From: Streptomyces capitiformicae
GTDB taxonomy: Bacteria; Actinomycetota; Actinomycetes; Streptomycetales; Streptomycetaceae
Reading direction: 5' to 3'
Assembly: GCF_002214185.1 (NCBI RefSeq)
Contig: NZ_CP022161.1
Span: forward strand, 1,240,001 to 1,304,000
Length of the DNA stretch: 64,000 nt
Part shown: piece after piece, positions 15,361 to 39,205 of the stretch
How positions within the stretch are numbered: the stretch's first letter is position 1
Layout: every line of letters begins with the position of its first letter
Position numbers and translations under genes: made by a program
The notes under the pieces: generated by a model
Databases searched by the model: none
Seen by the model: only the letters and a program-made list of their open reading frames with translations
What the model was told of the DNA's origin: nothing

Positions 15361-15930
15361 TCACGGACCGAACCGAGCCGAGCCGGACCGAGTCGAACCG
15401 AGCCAGACCGAACCGAGCCCGACCAGGCCAGACCGAGCCGGACCGAGCCAAGCCGAGCCAGACCGAACCGAGCCCGACCAGGCCAGACCGAGCCGGACCG
15501 AGCCAAGCCGAGCCAGACCGAACCGAGCCCGACCAGGCCAGGCCGAGCCGGACCGAGCCAAGCCGAGCCAGACCGAACCGGACCGAGCCGAACCCGACCG
15601 GGCCAGACCGAGGCGAGCCAGACCGAACCGAGCCAGGTCGAGCCGGACCGAGCCGAGCCGGACCGAACCGAGCCGAGCCGAGCCGAGCCGGACGGAGTCG
15701 AACCGAGCCAAGCCGAGCCAGGCCGAGCCCGAGCCCGAGCCCGAGCCAGACCCGACCGGGCCGGAGCGAACCGAGCCAAGCCGACCGGGCCAGGCCGAGC
15801 CAGGCCGAGCCAGGCCGGAGCCGGGCCGTGGCCGGGATCGGGATCGGGCCAGGCCGAGCCGGGGCCGGAACCGGGCCGAGCCGGGGCCGGGGCCAGGCCA
15901 GGCTCGGACGTGGGTCCCGCGTGGAACCGG
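15361..15930. repeat. Low-complexity array with a 55-bp tandem unit
   Basis: About 570 bp are built from GACCGAGCC/GAGCCGGACC-like words with almost no T on the plus strand. Inside, a 55-bp unit repeats exactly in register at 15401, 15456 and 15511, with a partial fourth copy at 15566. Open frames over it encode only RTEPSRAEP-like low complexity and are not believable genes. The array separates the eccC remnant from the tailoring island. Confidence 0.9.
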
Positions 15931-15953
15931 ACGGGGCGATCCCCGTGAAAACA

Positions 15954-15988
15954 GCGCCGGACGGGCTGGTGACCAGCCCGTCCGGCGC
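15954..15988 (-). terminator. Hairpin terminator of the hydroxylase/methyltransferase operon
   Basis: A perfect 17-bp inverted repeat (15954-15970 with 15972-15988) lies 20 bp beyond the stop of the minus-strand monooxygenase. Confidence 0.8.
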
Positions 15989-16008
15989 CTGGGGGGGAAG
16001 GGGAACGC

Positions 16009-17607
16009 TCAGTCGCGGCCCAGCAAACGCAGCAGCGCGGTCGTCAGCTCCTCCTCCGGCTTGGCCGCGGCGCCCTGCGAACGCCAGGCGACGAAGCCGT
16101 CGCTGCGGACCAGGACGGCGCCCTCGGCCCCGATGCCGTACCGCGCGGGCAGCGCGTCGTCCGGGTCGGTGAGCCCCGCGCCGCCGACCCGGTGCGCCAC
16201 GAGCGGCGCGCCGAGGCGCTCGGCGACGGCGGCGGCCGCCGCCTCCCAGGCCTGGCCGCCGGCGGCGGTGACCAGGACCGGCCCGGAACCGTACAGGTCG
16301 AGCGAGGAGATGGTCTTCCCGTCACGCTCCAGCGTCACGTGCGGGGCCCTGGTGCCGGCCTCGCCACTGAGCTGCCGGGGCGGCACCGGCGGGCCGTCGG
16401 AGTAGCGGTAGCCGAAGACGGTGGTGCTGTAGCTCTCGGCCGGGCTGAGCCCGCCGTCCTCGCCGCCGTCCTGGCCGGTGCGGTCCTGCATCATCGCCAT
16501 GGTCTGCTGGAGGGTCATCCAGGCCACCGGCTGCCGCTCGGCCTGGTAGGTGTCGAGCAGCGCCTCCCCCGCGGTGCCGTCGAGCACCGCGGCCAGCTTC
16601 CAGGCCAGGTTGTGCGCGTCCTGGATGCCCAGGCTGGCGCCGAACCCGCCGGTGGGCGGGACCAGGTGGGCGGCGTCACCGACGAGGAAGACCCTGCCGC
16701 GGCGGTACTCCCTGGCGACCTGGGCGCCGATGATGAAGCTGAGCCACTTGGCGCCGCCCGCCGGCAGCTGCGCGACGATGCGCACCTTGAGGTCGGGCAG
16801 ACCGATGGCGGCCCGCACCAGCTCGATCGCCTGCTCCTCGGTGACCGTCTCCAAGGTGGTGTCCGGCGGCATCGGCGTGGCGAAGATCCAGCGCTGATCG
16901 CCGTCGTGCGCGAAGAGGATCGTCGAGGGTGCCGGCCGGTCGAGGTAGCAGACCCCGACCGGACGGCCGCGGGCCGCCTCGCTCAGATCGGCCTCGAACA
17001 GCACCGAGACCGTGGTCGCGAACTCGCCGGGGCCGTCGAGCTCGATGCCCAGGTCGGAGCGGACCGGGCTGCGACCGCCGTCGGCCGCGATCAGGTACCG
17101 GGCCCGCACGGTGCGCTCGGCCCCGCCCTCACGGTCCCGTAGGACGGCGGTGACGCCGTCGTCGTCCTGCTCGAAGGAGACGAGCTCGGTGGCGAAGGCG
17201 AGTTCGGCGCCGAGCTCGGTGGCCCGCTCGCGCAGCAGGTGCTCCAGCCGGTCCTGGTCGATGGGTGCCCACTCGCAGGGGCTGACCTCGCCGGTCGGGT
17301 CCGGGCTGTCCGTCGGCCCGCTGAAGTGCTCCTCGGCGGCCAGCGTCTCCGCCTTGATCATCTGGAGTTTGCTGAAGTCCGTGGCCAGGCTGGCTTCGGC
17401 CCAGATCCGAGACTCCAGCCCCGCCTGCCGGTAGACCTCGACCGTACGGGGATTGATGCCCCGCGAGCGGGGATGGCTGAGGGTGTCGGGGTGCCGCTCG
17501 ACGACCAGGGTGCTGACCCCGTGCCGGGCGAGGAAGACGGCGGTCGACAGGCCGGTGACAGCGCCCCCGACGACCAGCACTTGCACCTCGGAAGGCGCCT
17601 TGCTCAT
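16009..17607 (-). CDS. FAD-dependent aromatic polyketide hydroxylase (PgaE/RdmE type), FMO1
   Basis: A 532-aa class A flavoprotein monooxygenase. The N-terminal FAD site is VVGGAVTGLSTA, where the usual GGGPVG has become GGAVTG. The DG motif is AADGGRSPVR near residue 175, the GD motif GRVFLVGDAAHLVPPTGGFG near 305, and a thioredoxin-like C-terminal domain follows from about 400. That three-domain form is typical of NADPH-dependent hydroxylases acting on angucyclines and other type II polyketides. It lies 24 bp downstream of methyltransferase OMT1 in one operon. The substrate cannot be read from sequence. Confidence 0.92.
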   Translation of the reverse strand: MSKAPSEVQVLVVGGAVTGLSTAVFLARHGVSTLVVERHPDTLSHPRSRGINPRTVEVYRQAGLESRIWAEASLATDFSKLQMIKAETLAAEEHFSGPTDSPDPTGEVSPCEWAPIDQDRLEHLLRERATELGAELAFATELVSFEQDDDGVTAVLRDREGGAERTVRARYLIAADGGRSPVRSDLGIELDGPGEFATTVSVLFEADLSEAARGRPVGVCYLDRPAPSTILFAHDGDQRWIFATPMPPDTTLETVTEEQAIELVRAAIGLPDLKVRIVAQLPAGGAKWLSFIIGAQVAREYRRGRVFLVGDAAHLVPPTGGFGASLGIQDAHNLAWKLAAVLDGTAGEALLDTYQAERQPVAWMTLQQTMAMMQDRTGQDGGEDGGLSPAESYSTTVFGYRYSDGPPVPPRQLSGEAGTRAPHVTLERDGKTISSLDLYGSGPVLVTAAGGQAWEAAAAAVAERLGAPLVAHRVGGAGLTDPDDALPARYGIGAEGAVLVRSDGFVAWRSQGAAAKPEEELTTALLRLLGRD

Positions 17608-17631
17608 GGGGAGACTCCTCTCTGGTGGGGT

Positions 17632-18645
17632 TCAGGCCTTCTTGCGGCAGACAACGAGCGTGTCGTACTCGCTGAGCGGGGAGACCTCGACGGTGGAGAA
17701 GCCGACCTGCTTGGCGACCGCCACGGCCTCGGAGATCGGGTACTCCTCACCGCCGTCCGTGACGAGCAGCATGTCGAGGCTGATCACCAGGTTCTCGATG
17801 TGCGTGGACTCGTCCTCCAGCATCCGGTCGTAGATCAGCAGGGTCCCGCCGGGGTTGACGGCGTCGTACGCCTTCGCGATGAGCTCGGCGCGCTGGCTCT
17901 TGTCCCAGTCGTGCAGGACGTGCCCGAGGATGACGACGTCGGCGGTGGGCAGCGGGTCCGTGAAGAAGCTGCCGCCGTGGAAGGTGACGCGTTCGGTGAG
18001 GCCGTCCTCGGCGACCCGCTCGTCGAAGAGCGGTTCCATCGCCGGGAGGTCGAAGACGTGGCCCGTGAGGTGAGGGTGGTGCTTGGTGATGATGGAGCAC
18101 AGGTTGCCCCGGGCGCCGCCGACGTCGAGCACGGAGGCGTGGCCCGACCAGTCGTACTTCTGGGCGAGTTCGGGTCCGACGACGTGGGTGAGGGCGTCCA
18201 TCATGCCGACGAACTGGCGCAGGATGTGCGGGTTCTTCGTGACGGCGTCGAAGTCGCTGCCGGACTGCTGCTTCCCGGTGCGCAGGCCCTCGGAGAGCCG
18301 GCCCCACGCGGGGTAGAGGTTCCGGTTCGACCGCTCCAGGAAGCCGCCGACGTAGCTCTTCTTGCCGTGCACCAGGTAGGTGTCCGCGCCCGTGGTGTTG
18401 CGGTAACGCCCGTTCTCACGCTCCAGCAGGCCGAGGGCCGTGAGCAGGCTCAGGAAGTCCGACAGGCCACGCCCGTGCAGCTCCAGCGCGGACCTGATCT
18501 CCTCCTCGGTGGCCTGGCCCTTCTCGTGGAGCACCGTGAACAGGCGCAGCTCGACAGCGGTCAGCAGCGCCTTGGCGTCGCAAAACATGTTGCCGAGCCG
18601 GATGATCCCGGCAGGAGTACTGACGTCGGGAATGGTGTGCGTCAT
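17632..18645 (-). CDS. SAM-dependent O-methyltransferase, OMT1
   Basis: A 337-aa protein starting at ATG 18645 behind AAGGAG. It has an N-terminal winged-helix dimerisation domain and a C-terminal SAM fold with VLDVGGARGN near residue 175. GHVLHDWD near 241 keeps the His of the HDW motif that serves as catalytic base in many plant-type O-methyltransferases. It belongs to the DnrK/RdmB/TcmO-like family used on aromatic polyketides. It is paralogous to the 20.8- and 25.9-kb genes and is first in an operon with FMO1. Confidence 0.9.
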   Translation of the reverse strand: MTHTIPDVSTPAGIIRLGNMFCDAKALLTAVELRLFTVLHEKGQATEEEIRSALELHGRGLSDFLSLLTALGLLERENGRYRNTTGADTYLVHGKKSYVGGFLERSNRNLYPAWGRLSEGLRTGKQQSGSDFDAVTKNPHILRQFVGMMDALTHVVGPELAQKYDWSGHASVLDVGGARGNLCSIITKHHPHLTGHVFDLPAMEPLFDERVAEDGLTERVTFHGGSFFTDPLPTADVVILGHVLHDWDKSQRAELIAKAYDAVNPGGTLLIYDRMLEDESTHIENLVISLDMLLVTDGGEEYPISEAVAVAKQVGFSTVEVSPLSEYDTLVVCRKKA

Positions 18646-18844: not shown

Positions 18845-18883
18845 AAAGGCGCCCGGCACGCGCCCCGGACGCTGCCCAAGGGG

Positions 18884-19209: not shown

Positions 19210-20820
19210 ATGTACGACGTGAGGATCCCAGTACTGATCATCGGTGGAGGGCCCGTGGGCCTGTCCACCGCCCTCTTCAGCGGGCGACGTGGTGTGCGCA
19301 CGATGCTGCTGGAGAAGCGTGACAGCACCTCCACCCTGCCGCGCGCCCCGGGTCTGCAGGCCCGCACGATGGAACTGTTCCGGGCAGCGGGTCTCGGCCA
19401 GGACATCCGGGCCCTGGAGATGGGCGACTCCCACTCCTACTTCGAGGGCGGCATCATCAAGGTGCACACCTTCGCCGGCATCGATGACGCCGAGCTTCTG
19501 GAAGCCCCTTCGCTGGACGGGCCGACGGTCAGCCCCGAGCGGGTCATGGGCTGTGGTCAGGACCGCTACGAGAAGGTCCTGGCCGAGAAGGCGCGGGAGG
19601 CCGGCGCCGACGTCCGCTTCGGCACCCGTCTGATCTCCTTCGAGCAGGACGAGGACGGCGTCACCGCCGTCGCGGAGGAGAACGGCGGCAAGCGGTACAC
19701 CATCCGGGCCGACTACCTGGTGGGCGCGGACGGCGCCGGAAGCCTCACCCGGGAGTCGCTCGGGGTCGAGCGGAGCGGCCGCGGCACCGTCTTCAACGCC
19801 CTCAGCATCTACTTCCGGGCGCCCGAGCTGGAAAAGCTGCTGAAGGACCGTAAGTTCATCCTCTGCTACGCCAGTGCCAGCGGCACGCTGATGGGTCTGT
19901 CCCGGCTGCACGGCTGCGACCCCTGGCTGGCGACTCCCCTCTACTACCCGGAGAAGGGGGAGAAGCCGGAGGACTACACCGACGAGCGCTGCGTCGACAT
20001 CGTGCGCCGCTCGGCCGGCAAGGACATCGACGTGGAGGTCGTCGCCAAGGTGCCGTGGCGCGGCGCCCAGTTGGTCTCCGACACCTTCCGGGTGGGCCGG
20101 GTGTTCCTGGCCGGTGACGCCGCGCATGTGCACCCGCCGGCCGGTGGGTTCGGCGCCAACACCGGTATTCACGACGCCCACAACCTGTCCTGGAAGCTGG
20201 CCGCGGAGCTGCAGGGCTGGGGCACCGACGCCCTGCTGGACACGTACGACGCCGAGCGCCGCCCCCTGGGCACGGCCATGTCCGAGCAGGCGCTGGTCCG
20301 CAACCGGATCCGGCACGGCTACGCCACCGAGCAGGACAGGGCCGACTTCGTCGACGACGTCATCATCACGCTCGGCTACCGCTACCGCTCCTCGTCGGTG
20401 CTCGCTCCGGCGGACGCCAAGGTACTCACCCCCGACCTGGAGCTCACCGGCGAGCCCGGCACCCGCGCTCCCCACCTGTGGCTGCGCCGGGGCGAGGAGA
20501 CGATCTCCACGATCGACCTGTTCTGGGACTCGTACGTGCTGCTCACCGGCCCCGACGGCGCCCCCTGGGCCGAGGCGGCGACGAAGGTCGCGGAGAAACT
20601 CGGGATACCGCTGCGCACCCATGCGATCGGTCCGGACGAGGAGCTGCGGCCCACCGACCGCGAGTGGACCGAGGTCTACGGGGTGGGCCCGGCGGGCGCG
20701 GTGCTGGTCCGCCCGGACGCCTTCGTGTCCTGGCGATCGGCGGAGTCCGTGGCCGACCCGCTGGCGGTGCTGTCCGATGTGATCGCCCGTGTGTCCGGCC
20801 ATGAGCCGGCCACGGTCTGA
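19210..20820 (+). CDS. FAD-dependent aromatic polyketide hydroxylase, FMO2
   Basis: A 536-aa monooxygenase from ATG 19210, behind GAGGGG. It has a canonical FAD site IIGGGPVGLSTA, DG motif GADGAGSLTRE near residue 173, GD motif GRVFLAGDAAHVHPPAGGFG near 300, and a thioredoxin-like C-terminal domain (about 410-536). It has the same family and layout as FMO1 but is clearly diverged. It is followed 13 bp later by OMT2. Likely role: hydroxylation or oxidative rearrangement of an aromatic polyketide core. Confidence 0.92.
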   Translation: MYDVRIPVLIIGGGPVGLSTALFSGRRGVRTMLLEKRDSTSTLPRAPGLQARTMELFRAAGLGQDIRALEMGDSHSYFEGGIIKVHTFAGIDDAELLEAPSLDGPTVSPERVMGCGQDRYEKVLAEKAREAGADVRFGTRLISFEQDEDGVTAVAEENGGKRYTIRADYLVGADGAGSLTRESLGVERSGRGTVFNALSIYFRAPELEKLLKDRKFILCYASASGTLMGLSRLHGCDPWLATPLYYPEKGEKPEDYTDERCVDIVRRSAGKDIDVEVVAKVPWRGAQLVSDTFRVGRVFLAGDAAHVHPPAGGFGANTGIHDAHNLSWKLAAELQGWGTDALLDTYDAERRPLGTAMSEQALVRNRIRHGYATEQDRADFVDDVIITLGYRYRSSSVLAPADAKVLTPDLELTGEPGTRAPHLWLRRGEETISTIDLFWDSYVLLTGPDGAPWAEAATKVAEKLGIPLRTHAIGPDEELRPTDREWTEVYGVGPAGAVLVRPDAFVSWRSAESVADPLAVLSDVIARVSGHEPATV

Positions 20821-20833: not shown

Positions 20834-21868
20834 ATGCCCGAGATGACTGACACCGACACCGCCGCCGGACCGGCGGCCGTGCTGGGCCAGGCCATGGCGT
20901 TCCAGTCGGCGAAACTCGTCCTGACCGGGATGGAGCTGGGCCTGTTCGAGGCGCTGGCCGAGGAGCCTGGCGACGAGGAGGAGCTGCGCAAGCGGCTCGA
21001 CCTCCATCCCCGGGGCACCGGACACTTCCTGGCGGCCCTGACCGAGCTGGGATTCCTGGAGCGCGAGGAATCCGGGCGGTACCGCAACTCGGACACCACC
21101 CGGCGCTGCCTGGTGCCGGGCGGCGAGGGCTACCTGGGCGGCTTTCTGCGGGCCGCGGACCGGGTGATGTACCCGGCCTGGGGCCGGCTCTCCGAGTCGC
21201 TGCGCACCGGCGCGCCGCAGGCCGCCACCTTCAGCGGCGAGGACATGTTCGGCGAGCTGTACGACAGCGAGGAGAAGAAGGACGGGCTGGTCGGCATGGC
21301 CGAGGACGCCAGCCGTCCGCTCATCCCCGCGCTGGCGGCCGGCTTCGACTGGGCGGCCCACCACTCGGTGCTGGAGCTCGGCGGCTGTCGCGGCAACGTG
21401 CTGGCCGGGCTGGTCCGGGCCCATCCGCACCTGGACGCCCGCGTGTTCGATCTGCCACAGCTGGAGTCCGACTTCACCGCGCACATGGCGGCGATCGGGA
21501 TGACCGGCAAGGTCGGGTTCCACGGCGGGGACTTCTTCGCGGGTCCGCTGCCCGAGGCCGATGTGCTGATGATCGGCCACTCGCTCATCGACTGGAACGA
21601 CGAGCAGCGGCAGCGACTGGTCCGCAACGCCTTCGCGGCGGTGCGACCCGGTGGGGCGTTCCTGGTGTGGGACCCGGTCATCGTGGACGGGGAGGACAGC
21701 TACCTGAGGAACCTCATCCGCAGCCTCAACCTCCAGCTGATGACGCCGCACGGCACCGGGTACGACCTGGCCCAGTGCGCCGAGTGGATGCGGGCGGCCG
21801 GCTTCGCGTCCGTCAGCCACACCTCGCTCGGCCACGACGTCACCTTGGTCATCGCCAGGAAGGAGTGA
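20834..21868 (+). CDS. SAM-dependent methyltransferase-fold protein, OMT2
   Basis: A 344-aa protein; ATG 20834 was preferred over earlier in-frame starts because it follows the AAGGA site after the FMO2 stop. It has a winged-helix dimer domain, SAM motif VLELGGCRGN near residue 179, then GHSLIDWN near 247. The position of the usual catalytic His of the HDW motif is Ile here. Members of this family without that base can still methylate by proximity, or act as SAM-dependent hydroxylases (RdmB), so the reaction is uncertain. Confidence 0.88.
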   Translation: MPEMTDTDTAAGPAAVLGQAMAFQSAKLVLTGMELGLFEALAEEPGDEEELRKRLDLHPRGTGHFLAALTELGFLEREESGRYRNSDTTRRCLVPGGEGYLGGFLRAADRVMYPAWGRLSESLRTGAPQAATFSGEDMFGELYDSEEKKDGLVGMAEDASRPLIPALAAGFDWAAHHSVLELGGCRGNVLAGLVRAHPHLDARVFDLPQLESDFTAHMAAIGMTGKVGFHGGDFFAGPLPEADVLMIGHSLIDWNDEQRQRLVRNAFAAVRPGGAFLVWDPVIVDGEDSYLRNLIRSLNLQLMTPHGTGYDLAQCAEWMRAAGFASVSHTSLGHDVTLVIARKE

Positions 21869-21942: not shown

Positions 21943-22419
21943 TCAGCCGCGGATCCGGGACACGTGTTTCTCCTGGATCTCGCGGCTGCCGCGGACGAAG
22001 TCCAGCAGCAGCCGGAGTTCCGCCGCCGAGTAGCGCTGCAGCCCCTCGTTCGCCTCCTCGGCGAGCGGCCGGTAGATCTCGTCCGCGGCCTGGCGGGTGC
22101 GGTCGCTGGCCCGTACGACGGACCTGCGCCGGTCGGCCGGATCCGGCTCCCGGGTCAGATAGCCGAGCCGGTCCAGCCGGTCCAGCATGGCCGTGACGCT
22201 GCCGGTGGTGAGTCCGAGCGCCGCACCCAGTTCCCCGGGTGCGGCGCTCTCACGCTGCAGCAGCACATCCAGGCAGCGCAGATCGGTCTGGTTGATTCCC
22301 AGCCGGGCGGCGGCCGCCGCGTCGACCGCCTCCACCGCGCCCTGCAGGGCACGGATCTCGCCGGCGAGTTCCCAGCACAGCGCCTCTTTGCTCAGGCCGT
22401 CCGCAGCTTCACTTGACAT
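21943..22419 (-). CDS. MarR-family transcriptional regulator
   Basis: A 158-aa winged-helix protein. The recognition region is GELGAALGLTTGSVTAMLDRLDRLGYL, with wing EPDPADRRRSVVRASD. It is divergent from the 22.5-kb gene. A perfect palindrome ACTTGACATTCAAGT covers its own start codon, pointing to autorepression. The same palindrome type stands upstream of the FMO3 gene at 30.5 kb. MarR proteins commonly sense phenolic ligands, so a pathway intermediate or product is a reasonable inducer. Confidence 0.9.
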   Translation of the reverse strand: MSSEAADGLSKEALCWELAGEIRALQGAVEAVDAAAAARLGINQTDLRCLDVLLQRESAAPGELGAALGLTTGSVTAMLDRLDRLGYLTREPDPADRRRSVVRASDRTRQAADEIYRPLAEEANEGLQRYSAAELRLLLDFVRGSREIQEKHVSRIRG

Positions 22420-22465
22420 TCAAGTATCTCGACCTTCAAGATAGAGGTACACCTTGAGAGTCAAG
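22411..22465. promoter_or_regulatory. MarR operator cluster 1
   Basis: Three sites of the pattern CTTGA-N3-TCAAG: ACTTGACATTCAAGT (22411-22425, perfect), ATCTCGACCTTCAAGAT (22426-22442, one mismatch pair), CTTGAGAGTCAAG (22453-22465, perfect). They lie between the divergent MarR gene and the 22.5-kb gene, and the first overlaps the MarR ATG. Confidence 0.8.
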
Positions 22466-22539
22466 ATAGTTGACCCCCAAGGAAAATCAAGCCGTATCAG
22501 ATCGGGAATGTTGCCCGGGTTCCAGGAAGGAACACTGTG

Positions 22540-23088
22540 ATGAACACCCCGCACCACACCGAACCGCACCACACCGCGACCGACGCCACCGCGACCGACG
22601 CCACCGCGCCCAGCGAGGACACCGTCCAGGTGGAGGCCTTCTACACCACGGAGAAGAAGCTCGGCCACTGGACCGAGGCCCGCCGGATCGATGTCCGGGC
22701 GAGGCGGTCCTCCCTCCATCTCGACCTGCGTTCCCACCGGATCCCCGAGGGCGAGATCGTGGTGCACCTGCACGCCGAGCGCTCCACGGTCAAGCTGCTG
22801 GTCCCGGACGGGGCCGTCGTGGACGAGACGGAACTGGAACTGCCGGACCGCTCGAAGGTCAAGGACGCCCAGCGGCACGCCCCCGCCGCCGACGACGGAC
22901 GGCGGATCCGGCTCACCGGGCGGCTGCAGCACAGCGAGATCAGGATCTCCCGCGGCGGCATGGCCAACCTCAGCACGATGTTCACCCGCGAGTTCGTCGA
23001 GGAGGCCCGCAGGGCGCACCGCGAGGGCGACCACCCCGCTCTCCCCGACCCGTCCCTGCCCGGCCCGCGGCCGAAGGACGACGTCTGA
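22540..23088 (+). CDS. MarR-controlled hypothetical protein with beta-rich central domain
   Basis: A 182-aa protein from ATG 22540 (GTG 22537 is also possible) behind AGGAAGGA. The first 30 residues are a His/Thr/Ala-rich tail containing the near-repeat TATDATATDATA. Residues 35-150 form a predicted beta-rich domain (GEIVVHLHAERSTVKLLVPDGAVVDETELELP). The region resembles the LiaF/DUF4097-like autotransported beta-helix folds only loosely. No catalytic motif or signal peptide was seen. Its promoter and first codons are duplicated upstream of FMO3. Confidence 0.7.
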   Translation: MNTPHHTEPHHTATDATATDATAPSEDTVQVEAFYTTEKKLGHWTEARRIDVRARRSSLHLDLRSHRIPEGEIVVHLHAERSTVKLLVPDGAVVDETELELPDRSKVKDAQRHAPAADDGRRIRLTGRLQHSEIRISRGGMANLSTMFTREFVEEARRAHREGDHPALPDPSLPGPRPKDDV

Positions 23089-23252: not shown

Positions 23253-23354
23253 ATGCCCCAGGACCAGACTGAAGCGCCATTCGCCGGCCTCGCGGTGACG
23301 TCGGCACCCGCCCCGGCCCCTGTCGACAGGGAAGGGGGCTCCCGGTGGAACTGA
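23253..23354 (+). CDS. 33-aa leader ORF coupled to the antiporter gene
   Basis: A short frame from ATG 23253 with a good GGGAG site. It encodes 33 residues starting MPQDQTEAPFAGLAV and ending SRWN, with TGA at 23352-23354. The antiporter GTG (23345) lies inside its last codons, so ribosomes finishing the small ORF could re-initiate. No similarity is known to me. It may be a translational regulator rather than a functional peptide. Confidence 0.5.
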   Translation: MPQDQTEAPFAGLAVTSAPAPAPVDREGGSRWN

Positions 23355-24682
23355 GCACGTTGGTGACGCTGCTGCTCGATCTGACGGTGATCGTCGTCTT
23401 GGCGCGCCTGCTCGGTGCGCTGGCCCGGCGCCTGAAGCAGCCTGCCGTGATCGGCGAGATCCTCGGCGGGATCCTCCTCGGGCCGACGCTGTTCCACGGC
23501 GGGATAACCGCCTTCCTCTTCCCCGCCGAGGTCCGGCCGTCCCTGACGATGCTGGCGAGCATCGGCGTATGTGTGTTCATGTTCCTCGTCGGCCTGGAGT
23601 TCGACCGCGATCTGTTGCGCGGTCAGGGCCGCATCGCGGCAGGCGTGTCGCTCAGCGCGGTCGTCCTGCCGTTCTCCCTCGGAGCGCTGCTCGCCCTGCA
23701 CCTCGTGGACGACCATCCCACCGGGCACCGGCTCGCCTTCGTACTGTTCCTCGGTACGGCGATGTCCGTGACGGCGTTCCCCGTGCTCGCCCGCATCCTG
23801 ACCGACAAGGGCCTTATCGACACCCCCATCGGCGGACTGGCACTCGCCGCCGCGGCGGTCGACGACGTGCTCGCCTGGACGATGCTGGCCGTCGTGGCGG
23901 CGCTGGCCGGAGCCGGCGGCGCCCCCTGGCACGTCCTGCTCGTCCTGCCCTACGCCGCCGCGATGCTGTGGGTCGTACGACCGCTGCTGGCCCGGTTGGC
24001 CGAGCGCGGTGCGGCGGCGGGTCGGCCCACCGGGTGGCCGGCCGACGCGGGCGTACTGCTCGCCGTCGCGGCCGGACTGCTGCTGTCGGCCCAGGCGACC
24101 GAATGGATGGGCCTGCATCTGATCTTCGGAGCGTTCCTCTTCGGCATCGTCATGCCGCGTCAGGGTGCCTCGAGGCTGCGCGCGCACGCCCTGCCCCGGG
24201 TCGAGCGGATCTGCTCGACCCTGCTGCTCCCGGTGTTCTTCATGGTCGCCGGCCTCAAGGTCGACCTGTCGTCGATGGACGCCACGGCCTTCGGCGAGCT
24301 GGGCCTGATCCTCCTGGTGGCGATCGGAGGCAAGTTCGTCGGCGCGTTCCTCGGGGCCCGGCTCAATGGCGTGCGACCGCGGCACTCGGTCGTGCTGGCC
24401 GTTCTCATCAACACCCGCGGCCTCACCGAGCTGATCGTGCTGACGGTCGGACTGCAGATCGGGGTGCTGGATCAGCCCCTCTATTCGCTCATGGTCGTGA
24501 TGGCCCTGGTCACGACCGGCATGGCCGGCATCCTGCTGCCGTTCGTGTATCCCGATGAGCGGATACGTCAGGACCTGGCCGCCCGCGACCACGCGCCGCA
24601 CGCGCCGGACCCCGACGGGACCGCCACCGCGGACGACACGTCAACGCTGTCCCGTTCCCGCCCACCGCTCCCCGAGAGGTAA
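23345..24682 (+). CDS. CPA2-family cation/proton antiporter
   Basis: A 445-aa membrane protein with about 12 hydrophobic spans, no cytoplasmic NAD-binding domain, and the CPA2 signature regions: IGEILGGILLGPTLF, FLVGLEFDRDLL, and the NTRGLTELIVL stretch near the C-terminus. GTG 23345 follows GGGAAGGGG. Such antiporters accompany many aromatic-polyketide clusters and are usually proposed to handle pH or efflux stress. It may be under MarR control by read-through, although a hairpin intervenes. Confidence 0.88.
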   Translation: MELSTLVTLLLDLTVIVVLARLLGALARRLKQPAVIGEILGGILLGPTLFHGGITAFLFPAEVRPSLTMLASIGVCVFMFLVGLEFDRDLLRGQGRIAAGVSLSAVVLPFSLGALLALHLVDDHPTGHRLAFVLFLGTAMSVTAFPVLARILTDKGLIDTPIGGLALAAAAVDDVLAWTMLAVVAALAGAGGAPWHVLLVLPYAAAMLWVVRPLLARLAERGAAAGRPTGWPADAGVLLAVAAGLLLSAQATEWMGLHLIFGAFLFGIVMPRQGASRLRAHALPRVERICSTLLLPVFFMVAGLKVDLSSMDATAFGELGLILLVAIGGKFVGAFLGARLNGVRPRHSVVLAVLINTRGLTELIVLTVGLQIGVLDQPLYSLMVVMALVTTGMAGILLPFVYPDERIRQDLAARDHAPHAPDPDGTATADDTSTLSRSRPPLPER

Positions 24683-30467: not shown

Positions 30468-30600
30468 CACAGTGTTCCTCCTGGAACCCGGGCAACATTC
30501 CCGTTTTCGAAAAGGGCAACTCTCCTTGAGGGCCAACTCCCTTGACCGTCAAGGCACTTCTTTATCTTGAGGGTCGAGATACTTGATTGTCAAGTGAAGG
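30457..30600 (-). promoter_or_regulatory. MarR operator cluster 2 in duplicated promoter
   Basis: Sites: CTTGACCGTCAAG (30541-30553, perfect), ATCTTGAGGGTCGAGAT (30564-30580, one mismatch pair), ACTTGATTGTCAAGT (30581-30595, perfect). The whole segment is an inverted, slightly diverged copy of 22411-22549. The distance from outer palindrome to ATG is 128-129 nt in both. Confidence 0.85.
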
Positions 30601-30651: not shown

Positions 30652-32316
30652 TCAGTGGTGGGCGCTGTCGATCGTCCGCGGGGCGCCGCTCTCCGTACCC
30701 GGCTCCACAACGGTGAACTGCCCCATCATGCCCAGGTCTTCATGACGGAGAATGTGGCAGTGATACATGTACGGGGTCTTCGCGTCGGTGTGGGGCGGCA
30801 GCGCGACCGCCAGCCGCACGGTGTCTCCCGGAGGCACGCGCACGGTGTCCTTCGGCCCGCGCAGCCACGCGTCGGGCTTCTTCCCCGCGTACTCGATGAC
30901 GTTGAAGGTGGCTCCGTGGACGTGGAAGTTGTGCACCACCTCCGCGTCGCCGGTCACCTCCCAGATCTCGACCTCCCCGGCCGGACACACCTCGTCGATG
31001 CGGCTCATGTCCATGCTCTTGCCGTTGATCGTGAAGCTGTTGAACGCGAAGCTGCGGGTGCGCGCCTTCTCGGGAACGCTGATCGCGGAGGGAGCCCCGC
31101 GCAGGGTGTCGGGCAGTGGGCGGGACTCGGTGAGCCGGTCACGCGCCCGCACCTCGATCATGTCGAAGGTGTCCTCCTGGCCGCCGAGTCGGGCGGTCGG
31201 GAACTGCAGACCGAGCTCGGGCTCGAAACTGCGCAGCACGACCCGTTCCCCCGGTTTGAAGGCCACCACTATCTCGGCGCGTTCACCGGGGGTGAGCTGC
31301 AGCCGTCGCAGCGGTAGGGGCTTCTCCAGCAACCCGTTCTCCTGGGCGACCAGGTGGAACTCCCGGCTGTCGGTGAATCCCAGGTTGTAGGTCCTGGCGC
31401 CGGAGCCGTTCAGCAGCCTGAACCGCACCAGTGTGGTGGAGACCTGGACGTGCGGGTCATAGGTGCCGTTCACCAGGATGGTGTCACCGAGCACACCCGG
31501 ACTGCCCACGCCCGCCAGGCTCTGCATGAAGGTGGCCCCGCTCAGATCGAGGGTGCCGTCGTCGTTGAACTGCCGGTCCTGCAGGATCAGCGGAATGTCG
31601 TCCACACCATAGGAGTTGGGGAGACCGGACCGGTCCGCCTCGTCGTCCTCGATGATGAACATGCCGGCGAGGCCCCGCAGTACGTGGTCGGCCGTGCTTC
31701 CGTGCGGATGCGGGTGGTACCAGAGCGTCGCGGCCGGCTGGCTGATCTCCCACTCGGGGTTCCAGTCGGCTCCGGGCCGCACCATCTGGTGCGGGCCGCC
31801 GTCCATTTCGGCGGGCAGATGCATGCCGTGCCAGTGCAGTGTGGTCGCGTCCGGAAGGCTGTTGGTGAGCGACACCGACACCTTCTGTCCGCGGCGCGCC
31901 CGTAGCGTGGGCCCCAGGAGGGCGCCGTTGATCCCCCAGGTCGGCGTCTGCTTGCCGGGCAGCAGCTTGCTCTCGCCGGTCTGGGCGGTCAGCCGGAACA
32001 CACGGCGTCCGGATCCGTCGGGCTTCCCCTCCAACAGCGGGGGGATCCGCACCTTGTTGGCGAACGAGAGTTCACCGACATTGCTCAACTTGCGTCCGTT
32101 GTAGACCACGGCGAAGTTGGCCGCGTAGGCGCCGGCGCCCAGCAGGCCGACGCCCATGACACCGCCCGTGATCAGCAGAATCCTGCGTCGGATCGTCCGT
32201 GGGCGCTTCGTCGGCGCCTTCTGGCCGGGTCCGCTCTCGCCGCCGCGCACCACGGCCGATTCGTCCTCCCCGCTTCCCTTGTGATGGTCGGTCGTGGAAC
32301 TGTGGCTACCAGTCAT
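30652..32316 (-). CDS. Multicopper oxidase (CotA/bilirubin-oxidase-like)
   Basis: A 554-aa protein from ATG 32316. After a hydrophilic N-terminus comes an RRRIL-type hydrophobic export segment (about residues 42-68), possibly Tat. All copper ligands are present: HWHG near 160, WYHPHPHG near 200, HNFHVHG near 465, and HCHILRHEDLGMMGQF near 520. The three cupredoxin domains have the CotA/FtsP layout. Such laccases carry out phenol coupling, and some dimerise aromatic polyketides. Outside-membrane coupling or maturation of an island product is an inference from context. Confidence 0.92.
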   Translation of the reverse strand: MTGSHSSTTDHHKGSGEDESAVVRGGESGPGQKAPTKRPRTIRRRILLITGGVMGVGLLGAGAYAANFAVVYNGRKLSNVGELSFANKVRIPPLLEGKPDGSGRRVFRLTAQTGESKLLPGKQTPTWGINGALLGPTLRARRGQKVSVSLTNSLPDATTLHWHGMHLPAEMDGGPHQMVRPGADWNPEWEISQPAATLWYHPHPHGSTADHVLRGLAGMFIIEDDEADRSGLPNSYGVDDIPLILQDRQFNDDGTLDLSGATFMQSLAGVGSPGVLGDTILVNGTYDPHVQVSTTLVRFRLLNGSGARTYNLGFTDSREFHLVAQENGLLEKPLPLRRLQLTPGERAEIVVAFKPGERVVLRSFEPELGLQFPTARLGGQEDTFDMIEVRARDRLTESRPLPDTLRGAPSAISVPEKARTRSFAFNSFTINGKSMDMSRIDEVCPAGEVEIWEVTGDAEVVHNFHVHGATFNVIEYAGKKPDAWLRGPKDTVRVPPGDTVRLAVALPPHTDAKTPYMYHCHILRHEDLGMMGQFTVVEPGTESGAPRTIDSAHH

Positions 32317-32493
32317 GGGGCAATCATCGGGTCGCCCACTGGAGTCTTGCCTGAATATTGCTCGACTCCGGCTCAATTCCGTGGCCTCGCGCCGGCCACA
32401 CCCTCCCGCTTTTCGACCCGCTCGAGCGGTTCTCGAGGGGTGCCCCGCATGCTCCCGTACGTCCCCGTGCCCGCCACCGGATCAGGAGTCGAC
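32317..32493. promoter_or_regulatory. Divergent multicopper oxidase/SDR promoter region
   Basis: 177 bp between divergent genes. No MarR-type palindrome and no convincing promoter boxes were found. Confidence 0.4.
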
Positions 32494-33177
32494 GTGCCCC
32501 CTTCCCGTACCGCACTGGTGACCGGAGCGAACCGGGGGCTGGGCCTCGCGGTGGCCGCCCAGTTGCACGCCCGGGGACACCGGGTTCTGCTGGCCGCACG
32601 CGACGAGCGCGCGGCGGCCGAGGCCGCCGATCGACTGGGCGGCCAAGCCGTCCCCCTCGCGCTCGACGTCACCGACCAGGAGTCGGTGGACCGGGCGGTC
32701 AAGTACACCGGAGCCGTGGACGTCCTCATCAACAACGCCGGTGTGCAGCTGGACTGGGGGGAGTCCCCCTCGGCCGTCGACCTGGACCGGGTGCGGCACA
32801 CCCTCGAGGTGAACCTACTGGGCGCCTGGCGGATGGCCCAGGCGTTCCTGCCGGGCATGGTGGATCGCGGCTGGGGCAGGGTGGTCAACGTCTCCAGTGG
32901 CGCCGCGTCCTTCGCGTACGGCCCCGCGGCACAGTGCCCCGCCTACTCGGCGTCCAAGACGGCGCTGAACGCGCTGACCGTGATGCTGGCGAAGGAGACG
33001 GAGGGCACCGGGGTGCTGGTGAACTCCATCAACCCGGGGATGGTCAGGACCCGGATGCGCCCGGACGCCGAACAGTCCCCCCAGGAGGCCGCGCGGCACA
33101 TCGCCGACGCCGCCACGCTGCCGGACGACGGGCCTTCGGGGGTCTTCCTGCGCAGGGACACCACCATTCCGTGGTGA
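32494..33177 (+). CDS. Short-chain dehydrogenase/reductase
   Basis: A 227-aa classical SDR from GTG 32494 behind AGGAG. It has cofactor motif TGANRGLG, NNAG in VLINNAGVQ, active-site Ser in VVNVSSGAA and YSASK. The Arg after the second beta strand (AARDER) suggests NADPH. It lies between the multicopper oxidase and the MMPL exporter. It probably reduces or oxidises a ketone of the island product. Confidence 0.9.
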   Translation: MPPSRTALVTGANRGLGLAVAAQLHARGHRVLLAARDERAAAEAADRLGGQAVPLALDVTDQESVDRAVKYTGAVDVLINNAGVQLDWGESPSAVDLDRVRHTLEVNLLGAWRMAQAFLPGMVDRGWGRVVNVSSGAASFAYGPAAQCPAYSASKTALNALTVMLAKETEGTGVLVNSINPGMVRTRMRPDAEQSPQEAARHIADAATLPDDGPSGVFLRRDTTIPW

Positions 33178-33286: not shown

Positions 33287-35464
33287 ATGTCTACTCGTCC
33301 GCCCGACTCCGTTTCCGCTGAGCGGTCCGAACACGCCGGTGTCTTCTCCAAAATGGCGGGGTTCGCCGGTCGGCACCGATGGACAGCTCTGATCCTGTGG
33401 CTGGTTGTGCTCGTCGGCGTCTGGGTCGGCGCCTCGCGAGCGGGCGACCACTACCGCGACGACTACTCACTGCCGGGCACCCAGACCCAGCAAGCCCTTG
33501 AGGTGCTGCGGGAACACGGTGCGCAGAACGCCTGGAACACCGTCGAGATCGTGCTGCACGACAAGAACGGGCTCCGCGGCTCCGGAACCGAGTCCGATGT
33601 GGCCCGGATGCTGGAGCAGGTGGCCGAGCTGCCGGGCGTGGTCCAGGTCCGCAGCCCCTACGAGGACGAGTCCGCGATCTCGTCCGACGGCACCATCGGG
33701 TACGCCACCGTGGTCCTGGACCGTCCGGCCGAAGATGTGCCTGCCGAGCGGACCGAGCGGCTCCTGGAGACCGCGCGGGAAATACAGACGGACCGGCTGC
33801 AGGTGGAACTGGGCGGAGGCGCCGCGCGCAAACTGGCCGAGGGTCAGGGCGGCGGCGCGGAGGGAGCCGGGATCTTCGCGGCGCTGGTGATCCTGCTGTT
33901 CATGTTCGGCACGGTCATCGCCGCGGGCCTTCCGGTGATCACCGCCGTGTTCGCGGTCGGAACCACGCTGGGCATCATCGTGCTCGCCTCGCACCAGTTC
34001 ACCATCGCCAGCTACTCCCCCTATGTGATGACCCTGGTCGGCCTGGGCGTGGGCATCGACTACGCGCTGCTGATCTTCGCCCGCTACCGGACCGAGCTCG
34101 TCAAGGGCGTGGCCCCGGACCAGGCCTCGCGCGGCGCGTTGGAGGCGGCCGGCCGGACCGTCCTCTTCGCCGGCTGCACGGTGATCATCGCCCTGCTCGG
34201 CCTGGTCGCGCTCGGTCTCGGCGCGCTGCGGGGCATGGCGCTCTCGGTCGCGCTGACCGTGCTGCTCACCATGCTGGCCTCGCTGACGCTGCTGCCCGCG
34301 CTGCTCGCGATCTTCGGCAAGCGGTTCGCCCGGCAGTTCACGGAGCGGGCCCGCAAGCGTGCGGCCAAGGGCAGGGCGGAGGAGGGCGCCCGGTGGCGCG
34401 CCTGGGGACAGGCCGTACAGCGGCGTCCGTGGGCCGCGCTGGTGGTGCCCGTGGTGGCGCTGGGCGCTCTCGCGGTCCCCGTGGCGGATCTGCGGCTCGG
34501 CCTCGCGGACGCCGGCAACGACCCGGAGGGCACCACCAGCCGCGTGGCGTACGACCTGCTCGCGGAGGGGTTCGGCCCGGGATTCAACGGCCCTCTGGTC
34601 ATCGTGGCCGACGGTGGCGAGGGCGGCGACGCCGTGCGGGCGGCCCAGGCGGCCGCGGACACGCTCGGCGACACCCCGGGCATCGCCATGGTCAACGACC
34701 CGTTCCCCACCGAGGACGGCGCGGCCGCCATGGTCATCGCCGTCCCGAAGACCGCTCCGCAGGACACCGCGACCAAGGAGCTGGTGCACCGGCTGCGCGA
34801 CGATGTGCTGCCGAAGGTGACGGAGCGGACCGACGTCACCTACCTGGTCGGCGGGGCGACGGCGTCCGTGGTGGACTTCTCCGACTCCATCGAGGGACGC
34901 ATGCCGCTGTTCGTGGTGATCGTGATCGGACTCTCGGTGGTCCTGCTGATGGCGGTGTTCCGCTCGGTGCTGATCCCGCTGAAGGCCGCCGTGCTCAATC
35001 TCCTGAGCGTCGGTGCCGCGCTGGGCGCGGTCGCCCTGGTGTTCCAGCACGGCTGGTTCGGCGCGGAGCCGGGCCCCATCGAGGCGTTCCTGCCGACCAT
35101 GATCTTCGCCATCGTCTTCGGTCTGTCCATGGACTACGAGATCTTCCTGGTCTCCCGGATGCGCGAGGAGTGGCTCCGCTCCAAGGACGCGGCCAAGGCG
35201 GTCCGGGAAGGGCTGGCGCACACCGGAGCGGTCGTCACCGCGGCCGGCGCCGTCATGATCGTGGTGTTCGGCGCCTTCATGCTCAGCCAGGACCGCATGC
35301 TGCGGCAGTTCGGTTTCGGTCTCGCGGTGGCGATCTTCATCGACGCCGTCGTCATCCGCTGTCTCATCCTGCCGGCGGCCATGCGGCTGATGGGCCGCCA
35401 CGCCTGGTGGCTGCCGCGGGTGCTGGCCAGGGCACTTCCGGAGGTGAAGGTGGAGAAGCACTGA
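33287..35464 (+). CDS. MMPL/RND-family exporter
   Basis: A 725-aa membrane protein with the MMPL arrangement: first helix near residue 35, an extracytoplasmic loop, and five clustered helices, then the whole half repeated. It has the conserved GIDYALLIFARYR and SMDYEIFLVSRMREEW segments that carry the proton-relay Asp-Tyr pairs. Actinobacterial homologues export lipids, pigments and aromatic antibiotics, so this is the best self-resistance/export candidate of the island. It is followed by a strong terminator. Confidence 0.92.
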   Translation: MSTRPPDSVSAERSEHAGVFSKMAGFAGRHRWTALILWLVVLVGVWVGASRAGDHYRDDYSLPGTQTQQALEVLREHGAQNAWNTVEIVLHDKNGLRGSGTESDVARMLEQVAELPGVVQVRSPYEDESAISSDGTIGYATVVLDRPAEDVPAERTERLLETAREIQTDRLQVELGGGAARKLAEGQGGGAEGAGIFAALVILLFMFGTVIAAGLPVITAVFAVGTTLGIIVLASHQFTIASYSPYVMTLVGLGVGIDYALLIFARYRTELVKGVAPDQASRGALEAAGRTVLFAGCTVIIALLGLVALGLGALRGMALSVALTVLLTMLASLTLLPALLAIFGKRFARQFTERARKRAAKGRAEEGARWRAWGQAVQRRPWAALVVPVVALGALAVPVADLRLGLADAGNDPEGTTSRVAYDLLAEGFGPGFNGPLVIVADGGEGGDAVRAAQAAADTLGDTPGIAMVNDPFPTEDGAAAMVIAVPKTAPQDTATKELVHRLRDDVLPKVTERTDVTYLVGGATASVVDFSDSIEGRMPLFVVIVIGLSVVLLMAVFRSVLIPLKAAVLNLLSVGAALGAVALVFQHGWFGAEPGPIEAFLPTMIFAIVFGLSMDYEIFLVSRMREEWLRSKDAAKAVREGLAHTGAVVTAAGAVMIVVFGAFMLSQDRMLRQFGFGLAVAIFIDAVVIRCLILPAAMRLMGRHAWWLPRVLARALPEVKVEKH

Positions 35465-35554: not shown

Positions 35555-35590
35555 CCGCACCGGCGCGGGACCGCGCGGGTGCGGCGGGAA

Positions 35591-36423
35591 TCACCAGGTG
35601 ACCGGCAACGAGAGCAGTCCGCGGGAGACCGGGTGGTCCTTCCAGCGCAGCTCGTGCTCGGGGACGGCCAGCCGGATCGTGGGCAGCCTCCTGAGCAGGG
35701 TGGCCACGGCCACCTGGAGCTCCATCCGGGCCATCTGGGCGCCCAGACAGCGGTGAACGCCGTAGCCGAAGGCGAGATGGGAATTGGCCTCGCGGGCCAC
35801 ATCCACCCGCTCGGGTGCGTGGAAGACCGACGCGTCGTGGTTGGCCGAGCCGATCGCGGGGACCACGGCCTCACCCGCCCGTACGGTGACGCCGCCCAGG
35901 TCGACATCCTCCAGGGCGACCCTGGGCAGCGCTCCGCTGATCGCCGACGGGTTGTAGCGCGGCAGTTCCTCCACCGCGGTGGGCACGAGCTCGGGACGGG
36001 CGCGCAGCCGGTCCAGCTCGGCGGAGTGGAGCAGCAGGGTCAGTATCCCGCTGGAGATGGCGTTGACCGTGCTGAGGTAACCGGCGGTGAGCAGCAGGAA
36101 GGCGAAGCCGATCAGCTCCTTCTCGGTCAGCCTTCCGCCCTCGTCGCGCTCGGCGACCAGGGCGCCCAGCAGATCGTCGCCGGGGCGTTCGCGGCGCTCA
36201 CCGATCATGCCGGCGACGTACTCCTCGAGGTGGCCTCGTGCGGCCTTGATCTCTTCCTGGGAATGCCTCGTCATGCTGAAAGCGGTGTCCGTCCACGCGC
36301 ACAGCTGTGGACTGTCCTGCTGTGGAACTCCGAGGAGTTCCAGCACCAGCATGAGAGGCACGGGTAACGCGAGCCCGGGCAGCAGATCGCCCGGGGGACC
36401 CGCCTGGACGAGGTCGTCGACCG
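35591..36423 (-). pseudogene. Truncated cytochrome P450
   Basis: The frame gives the C-terminal two-thirds of a bacterial CYP: VDDLVQAGPPGDLL, the I-helix, ExxR (EELPR), and the heme loop FGYGVHRCLG with its Cys ligand. The first 130 or so residues of a normal 400-aa CYP are absent; a 16-bp minisatellite takes their place and no start is credible. The I-helix reads AGYLST where AG-x-(D/E)-T-T is usual, so the proton-delivery acid and first Thr are missing. It is probably dead. Before decay it would have belonged with the tailoring enzymes. Confidence 0.82.
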
Positions 36424-36424
36424 G

Positions 36425-36648
36425 GTATGCCCCGGCCGGCGGATACCCCGGCCGGCGGATACCCCGGCCGGCGGATACCCCGGCCGGCGGATACCCCGGC
36501 CGGCGGATACCCCGGCCGGCGGATACCCCGGCCGGCGGATACCCCGGCCTGCGGATACCCCGGCCTGCGGATACCCCGGCCTGCGGATACCCCGGCCTGC
36601 GGATGCCGCGGCCGGCGGATGCCGCGGCCGGCGGATGCCGCGGCCACA
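36425..36648. repeat. 16-bp minisatellite, about 14 units in three variant blocks
   Basis: Six copies of GGATACCCCGGCCGGC run from 36441, four of GGATACCCCGGCCTGC from 36537, and three of GGATGCCGCGGCCGGC-type from 36601; one degenerate unit precedes them. The period is strict. A 16-bp period cycles all three frames, so open frames across it (16-residue repeats such as GRRIPRPADTPAGGYP) are a by-product. Confidence 0.95.
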
Positions 36649-36735
36649 CAGGGTTCCGAGCCCCTGAGCCCGGACCGTGTCCGGGAAGCACGAAGGGCCC
36701 CAGCCACCGAAGCGTGTCCAAGGAGGTCGTGTTCC

Positions 36736-38563: not shown

Positions 38564-38587
38564 CACCCCGGTCCGGCGTCACGAGGA

Positions 38588-38620
38588 AGCCGCCGGGACG
38601 CCCCACGCGTCCCGGCGGCT
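38588..38620. terminator. Hairpin terminator
   Basis: A perfect 13-bp stem (38588-38600 with 38608-38620), 7-nt loop, lies 25 bp after the end of the amide-synthetase-like gene. Confidence 0.8.
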
Positions 38621-38621
38621 C

Positions 38622-38860
38622 GCTAGGGCGTGTTGCGAAAGTCCCGTCTGCCCCGCGACGCCATGCACGCTCCCCCGCTCTCGGCTCCGCTCGAGCGGGA
38701 GGGACCCCCACCGCCGCACCGGGCACACACCCAAGTACATCCAAGTGCGAGGGTGTATGCCCGGCACACCGAGGGCACGCAACTACGCGGACATCAGCCG
38801 CTGCCGCGGGCGCGGGGCCGCCCTCCGGGCGACGACGGGAAGGTGACGACAGGCCCTGGT
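38622..38860. repeat. Interspersed intergenic element, copy B
   Basis: Homologous to 18884-19110: CTAGGGCGTGTTGCGAAAGT at the left, CGCTCGAGCG palindrome in the middle, GACGACAGGCCCTGG at the right. It fills the gap between the amide-synthetase-like gene and the ABM gene. No gene is supported inside it. Confidence 0.75.
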
Positions 38861-38881
38861 GACACCGGCGGACTCAGGGCC

Positions 38882-39205
38882 CTACCGGGCGGACGTGCCC
38901 TGCAGCAGGCATACGGTCTGTGTCAGCCGCATCTCTCCGCCGCGCCGGTACGGGGCCAGGAGGCGCCGGTTCTCGACGTGCTCCTCGCTGTGCTCGAACC
39001 GATGGAAGCTGGGCGCATCGACCCAGTCGGTGACGACGTAGTAGACGTCCTCCTCGTCCGCCGACCGGGCGAGGGACTGGCAGAGATTGCCCGGCTGGGC
39101 GGCGATGCCCCTGCCCACCTCCTGCCACACCTTCTCGAACTCGGCGCCCCGGCCAGGGACTGTCTCCATGCGGAGCATCACACGGAAAGGAAGGGAATCC
39201 GGCAT
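38882..39205 (-). CDS. Antibiotic biosynthesis monooxygenase (ABM-domain) protein
   Basis: A 107-aa dimeric ferredoxin-like-fold protein. It shows FRVMLRMETVPGRGAEFEKVWQEV, YYVVTDWVDAPSFHRFEHSEEH and a closing MRLTQTVCLL strand. A GGAGG site precedes ATG 39205. Relatives such as ActVA-Orf6 and TcmH oxidise anthrone-type polyketides to quinones without metal or cofactor. Some members of the fold are cyclases, so quinone formation is likely but not certain. It lies at the right edge of the tailoring island. Confidence 0.88.
   Translation of the reverse strand: MPDSLPFRVMLRMETVPGRGAEFEKVWQEVGRGIAAQPGNLCQSLARSADEEDVYYVVTDWVDAPSFHRFEHSEEHVENRRLLAPYRRGGEMRLTQTVCLLQGTSAR

Follow-up and report, generated by a model that had tools for sequence, protein, structure and literature searches.

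A tailoring island without a polyketide synthase in Streptomyces capitiformicae as a likely third of a dispersed xanthone pathway

What is a set of aromatic-polyketide tailoring genes doing without a polyketide synthase (PKS)? Such an island lies in a 64,000-nucleotide stretch of the Streptomyces capitiformicae chromosome (the window; bases 1,240,001-1,304,000 of a single contig of 10,989,391 bases, 99.97% complete), where it spans ~15930-~41142 by homology, slightly farther than an earlier note on this DNA had placed its end. That note had offered half of a split cluster, a trans-acting tailoring set or a decaying cluster as explanations. The first two find support here, with three pieces rather than two: the island, block A, is likely the tailoring, export and MarR third of a pathway to a chlorinated polycyclic xanthone of the xantholipin/lysolipin type, dispersed over three distant loci.

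The absent core and its counterparts elsewhere in the chromosome

Gene calling and Pfam searches, on which the gene identities rest, confirmed the three flavin hydroxylases, three methyltransferase-fold proteins, halogenase, LLM oxidoreductase, multicopper oxidase, SDR, ABM protein, regulator and exporters that had been described. This is no chance grouping, as much the same set recurs in other Streptomyces (loci L031-L040 and L051). A whole-genome PF00109 search gave 65 ketosynthase (KS) matches, none within 1.240-1.304 Mb, and among genes called between 1.230 and 1.330 Mb, BLASTP against a core-gene reference set (E<=1e-10, a search that a short acyl carrier protein, ACP, could escape) found no relatives of KS, chain-length factor (CLF), ACP or cyclase. 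The earlier note had named the window's immediate surroundings as the place where core genes would speak against a PKS-less island, and both searches came back empty there.

The orthologous core lies 5.5 Mb away. Block B (~6,800,079-6,814,998) holds KS-alpha, CLF, ACP, ketoreductase, polyketide cyclase, and ABM and cupin proteins, together with SchA/CurD-like and anthrone-oxygenase-like proteins, a SARP, a thioesterase and a phosphopantetheinyl transferase, with a flavin monooxygenase (FMO) gene, FMO6, at its edge and an MTHFR gene adjoining. It thus contains the families of a minimal type II PKS plus cyclase, with the Cys of KS in STGCTSGLD (the third pattern tried; two narrower ones gave nothing), the CLF Gln in GAYQSIA and the ACP Ser in GYDSL. 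In KS-alpha, block B shares 95% identity with WC-3618 and 94% with S. niveiscabiei. No relatives of the window's halogenase or methyltransferases were found within the 93 kb mapped around block B (BLASTP, E<=1e-10).

Block C (10,677,398-10,685,262), a further 3.9 Mb on, encodes a ferredoxin-like protein, a P450, a TENA-like protein, an amide synthetase, an EryCIII-like glycosyltransferase, MetK and a PfkB kinase. For the first five of these, the Pfam assignment was made on the S. niveiscabiei orthologues. The amide synthetase gene is intact (10.6796-10.6815 Mb) and 93% identical to a gene beside the S. niveiscabiei core that has GATase and Asn synthase domains. The P450, which may be of the XanO2 methylenedioxy-forming type, carries the heme motif, and the block also has a 65-residue gene whose cysteines suggest a ferredoxin. 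Expected motifs were found in KS, CLF, ACP, the halogenase, and the block C amide synthetase and P450. With loci at 1.26, 6.80 and 10.68 Mb, up to 9.4 Mb apart, the genes fall outside a strict physical definition of a cluster (genes within 60 kb).

The chromosome also carries a second type II PKS cluster (L053/L054, 771-811 kb; KS/CLF at 786-788 kb) with its own monooxygenases and a KS 72% identical to that of block B. Another full-length amide-synthetase-like gene, 50% identical to the S. niveiscabiei one, lies at ~2.662 Mb (L165) in a region with genes of 1083 and 2079 residues.

Gene neighbourhoods in relatives and a second split

A halogenase search of genome contigs gave 22 loci. Coordinates were compared in 17 genomes (the own genome, G035, G088, G138, G218, G295-G301, G303-G306 and G311), using the 0.786-Mb KS as the KS query. 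In 13 of the 17, halogenase and type II KS-alpha lie on one contig, ~8-41 kb apart; the exceptions are the own genome, G035, S. niveiscabiei (G295) and WC-3618 (G296). Set apart from this count were G302 (same coordinates as G138), G307-G310, G312 and G313 (covered by the KS search, but with halogenase coordinates in another numbering), G055 and G173 (halogenases 51-53% identical), and the Amycolatopsis loci L048-L050. In the seven of the 13 compared (G088, G138, G218, G298, G300, G303 and G304), the halogenase-adjacent KS is 84-86% identical to that of block B.

The three blocks are orthologous to genes that neighbour one another elsewhere. In S. niveiscabiei, a single contig carries the core and, after it, the block C genes. 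In WC-3618 the C genes adjoin FMO1, and C shares a contig with the left half of A; in G298 they stand with core and tailoring genes on one contig. Because B is thus linked to C, C to A, and all three to one another, the blocks are concluded to be pieces of one ancestral set. Consistent with this, an FMO2 orthologue (E<=1e-215) occurs in 9 of 392 Streptomyces genomes, and in every one of the nine there is a KS with 79% identity or more to that of block B, although these genomes are related and do not represent nine independent events. FMO1 relatives, searched among 199 genomes, were matched only in the own genome and G088.

A second dispersed set was found in G035, probably S. mashuensis, a more distant species with a draft genome of ~40 contigs. 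Its tailoring genes lie at ~89-105 kb of a 164.5-kb contig (halogenase 68%, FMO2 70%, three O-methyltransferase (OMT) relatives and an LLM gene, accompanied by ketoreductase and anthrone-oxygenase-like genes), on which a KS search found none. Its core lies at ~25-37 kb of a 104.6-kb contig (KS 79%, CLF, ACP-like 40%, cyclases, amide synthetase 74%, P450 and glycosyltransferase). Because the breakpoints differ from those of the own genome, this split looks independent.

A split already present in WC-3618 and S. hygroscopicus (G286) was first deduced from separate core and tailoring contigs and then withdrawn because the genes at the contig ends are genes of the S-adenosylmethionine (SAM) cycle. 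The tailoring contigs of both start inside a metH-like gene, recognised by eye, and the core contigs stop just past MTHFR, so the clusters may be contiguous. In S. niveiscabiei, the C and A contigs each break off within a terminator hairpin, and in WC-3618 only ~100 bp separate these two hairpins. These three genomes are therefore called neither split nor intact.

SAM-cycle genes accompany the cluster family, as MTHFR, MetK, the PfkB kinase and, by eye, MetH (L157:2981-5262, L055:2192-3082, and the starts of L159 and L160), and presumably feed the methyltransferases. Beyond the left half of A in WC-3618 (contig C12; L159/L167) come a P450 relative, a 443-residue gene and a 1762-residue gene, the last possibly the non-ribosomal peptide synthetase-like protein noted for strain NBC_01538 (PMC13200232). 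In MUM 178J and PR69 (L036 and L051), the LLM gene is the last of the halogenase cassette, and hydrogenase-maturation genes come next; both strains have an FMO2 orthologue outside the stretches read. The Amycolatopsis halogenases (L047-L050), 64-66% identical to the window's, are each paired in tandem with another, more distant halogenase relative (37-38%), and the gene setting is a different one.

Condition of the island and competing explanations

The features of the island and its edges, in window coordinates, are as follows.

15074-15310, minus strand: fragment of EccC, a type VII secretion ATPase (phmmer matches to the EccC/FtsK-SpoIIIE chains 4nh0, 4n1a and 6j19)
15364-15903, no strand: degenerate low-complexity repeat, its units similar to CCGAG, separating the flank from the FMO1 terminator (TRF and sequence reading)
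16009-17607, minus strand: FMO1, aromatic hydroxylase, candidate XanO5-type (FAD_binding_3 and Rng_hyd_C)
17632-18645, minus strand: OMT1, O-methyltransferase (Pfam Methyltransf_2 and Dimerisation)
19210-20820, plus strand: FMO2, candidate XanO4-type Baeyer-Villiger xanthone-forming monooxygenase (Pfam, tree and identities)
20834-21868, plus strand: OMT2, O-methyltransferase (Pfam)
21943-22419, minus strand: MarR-family regulator (Pfam and gene call; longest open reading frame, the start possibly nearer 22335)
22412-22465, no strand: operator-like triplet of CTTGANNNTCAAG, two exact and one with 1 mismatch, between the MarR and 183-residue genes
22537-23088, plus strand: conserved 183-residue protein (orthologues in relatives; no Pfam or NCBIfam family at E<=0.001)
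23345-24682, plus strand: Na+/H+ exchanger-family transporter (PF00999)
25020-25880, minus strand: LLM-class oxidoreductase (nearest NCBIfam model F420-type, below that model's cut-off)
25897-26916, minus strand: OMT3, O-methyltransferase (Pfam)
26913-28316, minus strand: FAD-dependent halogenase, XanH/lysolipin-type candidate (PF04820)
28503-29030, plus strand: glyoxalase-fold protein (Pfam)
29126-30337, minus strand: FMO3, flavin monooxygenase (Pfam)
30541-30594, no strand: second operator-like triplet, two exact and one with 1 mismatch, upstream of FMO3
30652-32253, minus strand: multicopper oxidase (Pfam)
32281-33177, plus strand: SDR oxidoreductase (Pfam)
33287-35464, plus strand: MMPL-family exporter (Pfam)
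35594-36421, minus strand: P450 remnant lacking about the first 134 residues
36745-38554, plus strand: amide (asparagine) synthetase remnant, spread across three frames
38882-39205, minus strand: ABM-family protein (Pfam)
39376-40887, plus strand: POT/MFS transporter (Pfam; DNA homology to WC-3618 stops at ~41142)
41253-42011, plus strand: decayed DmpG-like aldolase remnant at the right edge (DmpG_comm only; frames read)

The P450 and amide-synthetase genes listed in the earlier note do show the homology claimed for them, but both are broken: homology of the P450 begins at residue 135 of a 410-residue relative, and the remnant abuts a tandem array (36430-36645). Because these two are relics, that list overstates the island's own capacity; it also missed the Na+/H+ exchanger-family transporter and the glyoxalase-fold protein. 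Apart from the relics, the tailoring genes are open and of about the same length as their relatives. That array (16 bp x 13.5) and one at 44975-45243 (36 bp x 7.5) are near-perfect, and a scan of the window at Rfam gathering thresholds gave no matches.

Divergence was compared for 38 reference genes, of which 37 have reciprocal best matches in WC-3618 and 36 in S. niveiscabiei. The blocks have diverged together: synonymous divergence (dS) is ~0.10-0.33 (about 0.2) from WC-3618 and ~0.32-0.93 (about 0.5) from S. niveiscabiei, with ranges that overlap between A, B and C. The ratio of nonsynonymous to synonymous divergence (dN/dS), 0.06-0.66 and mostly 0.1-0.35, reveals purifying selection. For 35 genes, simple parsimony counts with S. 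niveiscabiei as outgroup gave own-branch ratios of 0.27, 0.21 and 0.20 for A, B and C, and 0.34, 0.35 and 0.29 for the WC-3618 branch. These branch ratios give no sign of relaxed selection on the own lineage, although little of it could have accumulated if the split is recent.

Operator-like arrays mark the island as well. The palindrome CTTGANNNTCAAG was seen in an alignment of MarR upstream regions from six genomes, exact in three and mismatched in three more distant ones. The window has eight matches at <=1 mismatch, six of them in the two triplets, where shuffled sequences lead one to expect 0.48. Across the genome there are eight exact sites, four of them in the triplets, against five for a backwards control pattern; the signal is clustering in the island, and the genome overall is not clearly enriched. 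WC-3618 has triplets (<=1 mismatch) on both contigs that bear halves of block A. No site at <=1 mismatch was found upstream of block B or C pathway genes. An operator shared by all three blocks was thereby rejected as a candidate, and the MarR protein, which may bind the triplets, probably acts on block A alone.

These observations bear on the possibility that the split ended production and left block A behind as a stranded set without function, in which decay is just starting. The two broken genes, the gene remnants at both island edges and the fact that the split need not be old would all accord with it. The reading is nevertheless unlikely, as the remaining genes stay open at about their relatives' length, the own-branch ratio of 0.27 does not exceed that of the WC-3618 branch, an intact amide synthetase and P450 are present in block C, and the operator-like triplets have been kept. 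The earlier proposal of a decaying cluster loses ground on the same evidence of open genes and an unraised ratio.

Gene trees raise a different question, namely whether block A serves another core, such as the type II PKS at 0.786 Mb, while block B and FMO6 make another compound. In the KS tree, the own block B belongs to a group (98/93) that also contains WC-3618, S. niveiscabiei, G219 and G286. The FMO2 tree instead unites the own genome, WC-3618 and S. niveiscabiei with G298, G303 and G088 (91/88) and leaves G219 and G286 outside. This conflict means that core and tailoring genes have partly different histories. Furthermore, the genomes of seven cores from the neighbouring KS clade (G012, G046, G106, G130, G148, G209 and G261) gave no match to FMO2 within the threshold, and FMO2 is present in G219 and G286 without a halogenase match at 1e-150. 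While the conflict, such B-type cores in other species and the KS/CLF pair at 786-788 kb favor service to another core, the 0.786-Mb KS is only 72% identical to that of block B, as compared to 84-86% for the cassette-adjacent KS of the seven genomes measured, and few tailoring genes of B's own occur within the 93 kb mapped. We regard this alternative as quite improbable.

On the left edge of the island, homology stops in the FMO1 terminator, beside the low-complexity repeat, a probable breakpoint scar, and the EccC fragment. On the right, it stops near 41142, ~255 bp beyond the POT gene and ahead of the aldolase remnant. Block C ends right after the terminator of its 65-residue gene, the very point at which WC-3618 runs on into FMO1. 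Among six genomes, relatives of the left-flank EccB occur in four (54-64% identity) and of the right-flank PaaX in three (54-66%); no empty site was found in the six, both flanks being present only in G219 and G295, on different contigs. Type VII secretion genes for EccE, EccB, an S8 protease and two WXG100 proteins lie to the left of the island (4995-11108), and the island's edge, or a point close to it, may be where the ESX locus is broken. Integration at a tRNA gene was dismissed, since the tRNA-Pro called by ARAGORN (15682-15778) sits inside the low-complexity repeat and was judged an artefact.

One intact cluster could also have been misassembled into three loci, and contigs of relatives do break, at terminator hairpins and within metH, as in a region hard to assemble. 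This reading is nevertheless very improbable: the loci share one nearly complete 10.99-Mb contig, the outer side of block B keeps the relatives' gene order (by gene lengths), the A and C edges bear unrelated genes, remnants and a repeat, and G035 is split differently, on 104- and 164-kb contigs.

Several points weigh against a pathway dispersed over three loci, or limit it. The case is built from gene sequences and from the assembled contig. Since the split may be recent, most of the purifying selection could have acted before it. The KS tree conflicts with that of FMO2, so core and tailoring genes may have been recombined, and B-type cores occur where FMO2 or the halogenase has no match. Blocks B and C lack the operator-like motif ahead of their pathway genes, and nothing was found that links the control of all blocks. 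Orthology to XanO4, XanO5, XanO2, XanA and XanH is indirect, by way of other relatives. Finally, XanM1 has been proposed to act on an ACP-bound intermediate (PMC9327801), and a step of that type would need closer contact with the core.

Product class and comparison with known systems

The xantholipin/lysolipin affinity suggested earlier fits the closest relatives of the island's enzymes. The halogenase, which carries GGGPAG and WFWVIP, is 70% identical to S. tendae A7DWL5 ("putative non-heme halogenase"), the lysolipin halogenase, and 71% to an Actinoalloteichus protein. These relatives and motifs make it a candidate XanH-type FAD halogenase, just as the intact block C gene is a candidate XanA-type amide synthetase. 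The candidate XanO4-type FMO2 shares 79% identity with an enzyme of S. chrestomyceticus, with which the tree places it, and 72% with one of S. tendae, each being one of several monooxygenases of its species. FMO1 clusters with Actinoalloteichus enzymes, apart from FMO2 in a tree with some weak or open forks, and has GGAVTG in place of the GxGxxG dinucleotide motif as searched. The three O-methyltransferases expected of the class are present as OMT1-3. Sequence matches in the PDB are enzymes of other pathways (RadH/CmlS for the halogenase, RubL/GrhO5 for FMO2 and 6-hydroxynicotinate monooxygenase for FMO3), and the LLM protein has none at E<=1e-15. S. chrestomyceticus makes albofungin (PMC9469721) and S. 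tendae Tu 4042 makes lysolipin (PMC9327801). In the MBL-AB01 xanthone locus, locus tags run from a methyltransferase through an atypical Baeyer-Villiger monooxygenase and a second methyltransferase to a XanO5 homologue (PMC12838262), which is the order OMT2-FMO2-OMT1-FMO1 here. As a best guess, the product would be a chlorinated xanthone resembling xantholipin and lysolipin, perhaps with a sugar attached.

From these assignments we infer how the blocks would work together. Block B would make and fold the pentangular skeleton, which block A would methylate; FMO2 would convert the anthraquinone to the xanthone, FMO1 and FMO3 would hydroxylate and the halogenase would chlorinate, after which the block A transporters would export the product. 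Block C would form the amide, the ring made by P450 and ferredoxin, and the sugar link, and would supply SAM. The blocks would cooperate in trans via diffusible intermediates. Block A would form a separate MarR regulon, two of its promoters bearing operator triplets, and block B has a SARP of its own. XanH takes a freely diffusing substrate (PMC9327801), which would suit such action in trans.

Split pathways of other kinds are known. No dispersed xantholipin-type or other type II polyketide pathway over distant loci was found among the open-access titles and abstract openings listed; "split BGC" (biosynthetic gene cluster) in one paper refers to fragmented assemblies (PMC10897937). The evidence leaves evenly balanced the wider proposition that a working pathway is encoded at three loci up to 9.4 Mb apart, each with its own control, that the class has been broken up at least twice independently (in the own genome and G035), and that clustering is dispensable for type II polyketide xanthones with diffusible intermediates. 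Genome mining presumes that polyketide core and tailoring genes are adjacent. A published search for the xantholipin family demanded co-location within 60 kb (PMC13200232), a rule that should miss both the own genome and G035. If the pathway works, it provides a natural test of whether clustering matters for such antibiotics, and PKS-less tailoring islands elsewhere become leads rather than debris.

Compared with the xantholipin and lysolipin systems (S. flavogriseus xan; S. tendae), this genome has counterparts of the type II PKS core, three methyltransferases, amide synthetase and P450, and candidates for the XanH-like halogenase and XanO4-like monooxygenase. The known systems are single clusters (xan, 52 kb; PMC9327801), in contrast to the three loci here. 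This genome also has a multicopper oxidase and a MarR-associated operator array, which may or may not have counterparts in xan. The contiguous relatives at L033-L040 and L051 (S. smyrnaeus, S. albus, S. qinglanensis and others) have largely the same tailoring genes, with halogenases 80-82% identical and a KS on the same contig, but their KS-halogenase arrangement is unbroken and the five compared have a different core sub-clade (KS 84-86%, CLF 69-75%). Albofungin producers (S. chrestomyceticus/S. tumemacerans) resemble this genome in FMO2 (79%), amide synthetase and xanthone logic (PMC9469721), and differ in having one 60-72 kb cluster and a hydrazine modification. Streptomyces sp. NBC_01538, described as carrying a xantholipin BGC variant (PMC13200232), belongs to an FMO1 protein cluster 93% identical to the window's. 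Unlike the present genome, it was retrieved with XanO2, XanH, XanO4 and XanF homologues by the 60-kb co-location search (PMC13200232), and because these markers are together there, the own split probably arose after the two lineages parted.

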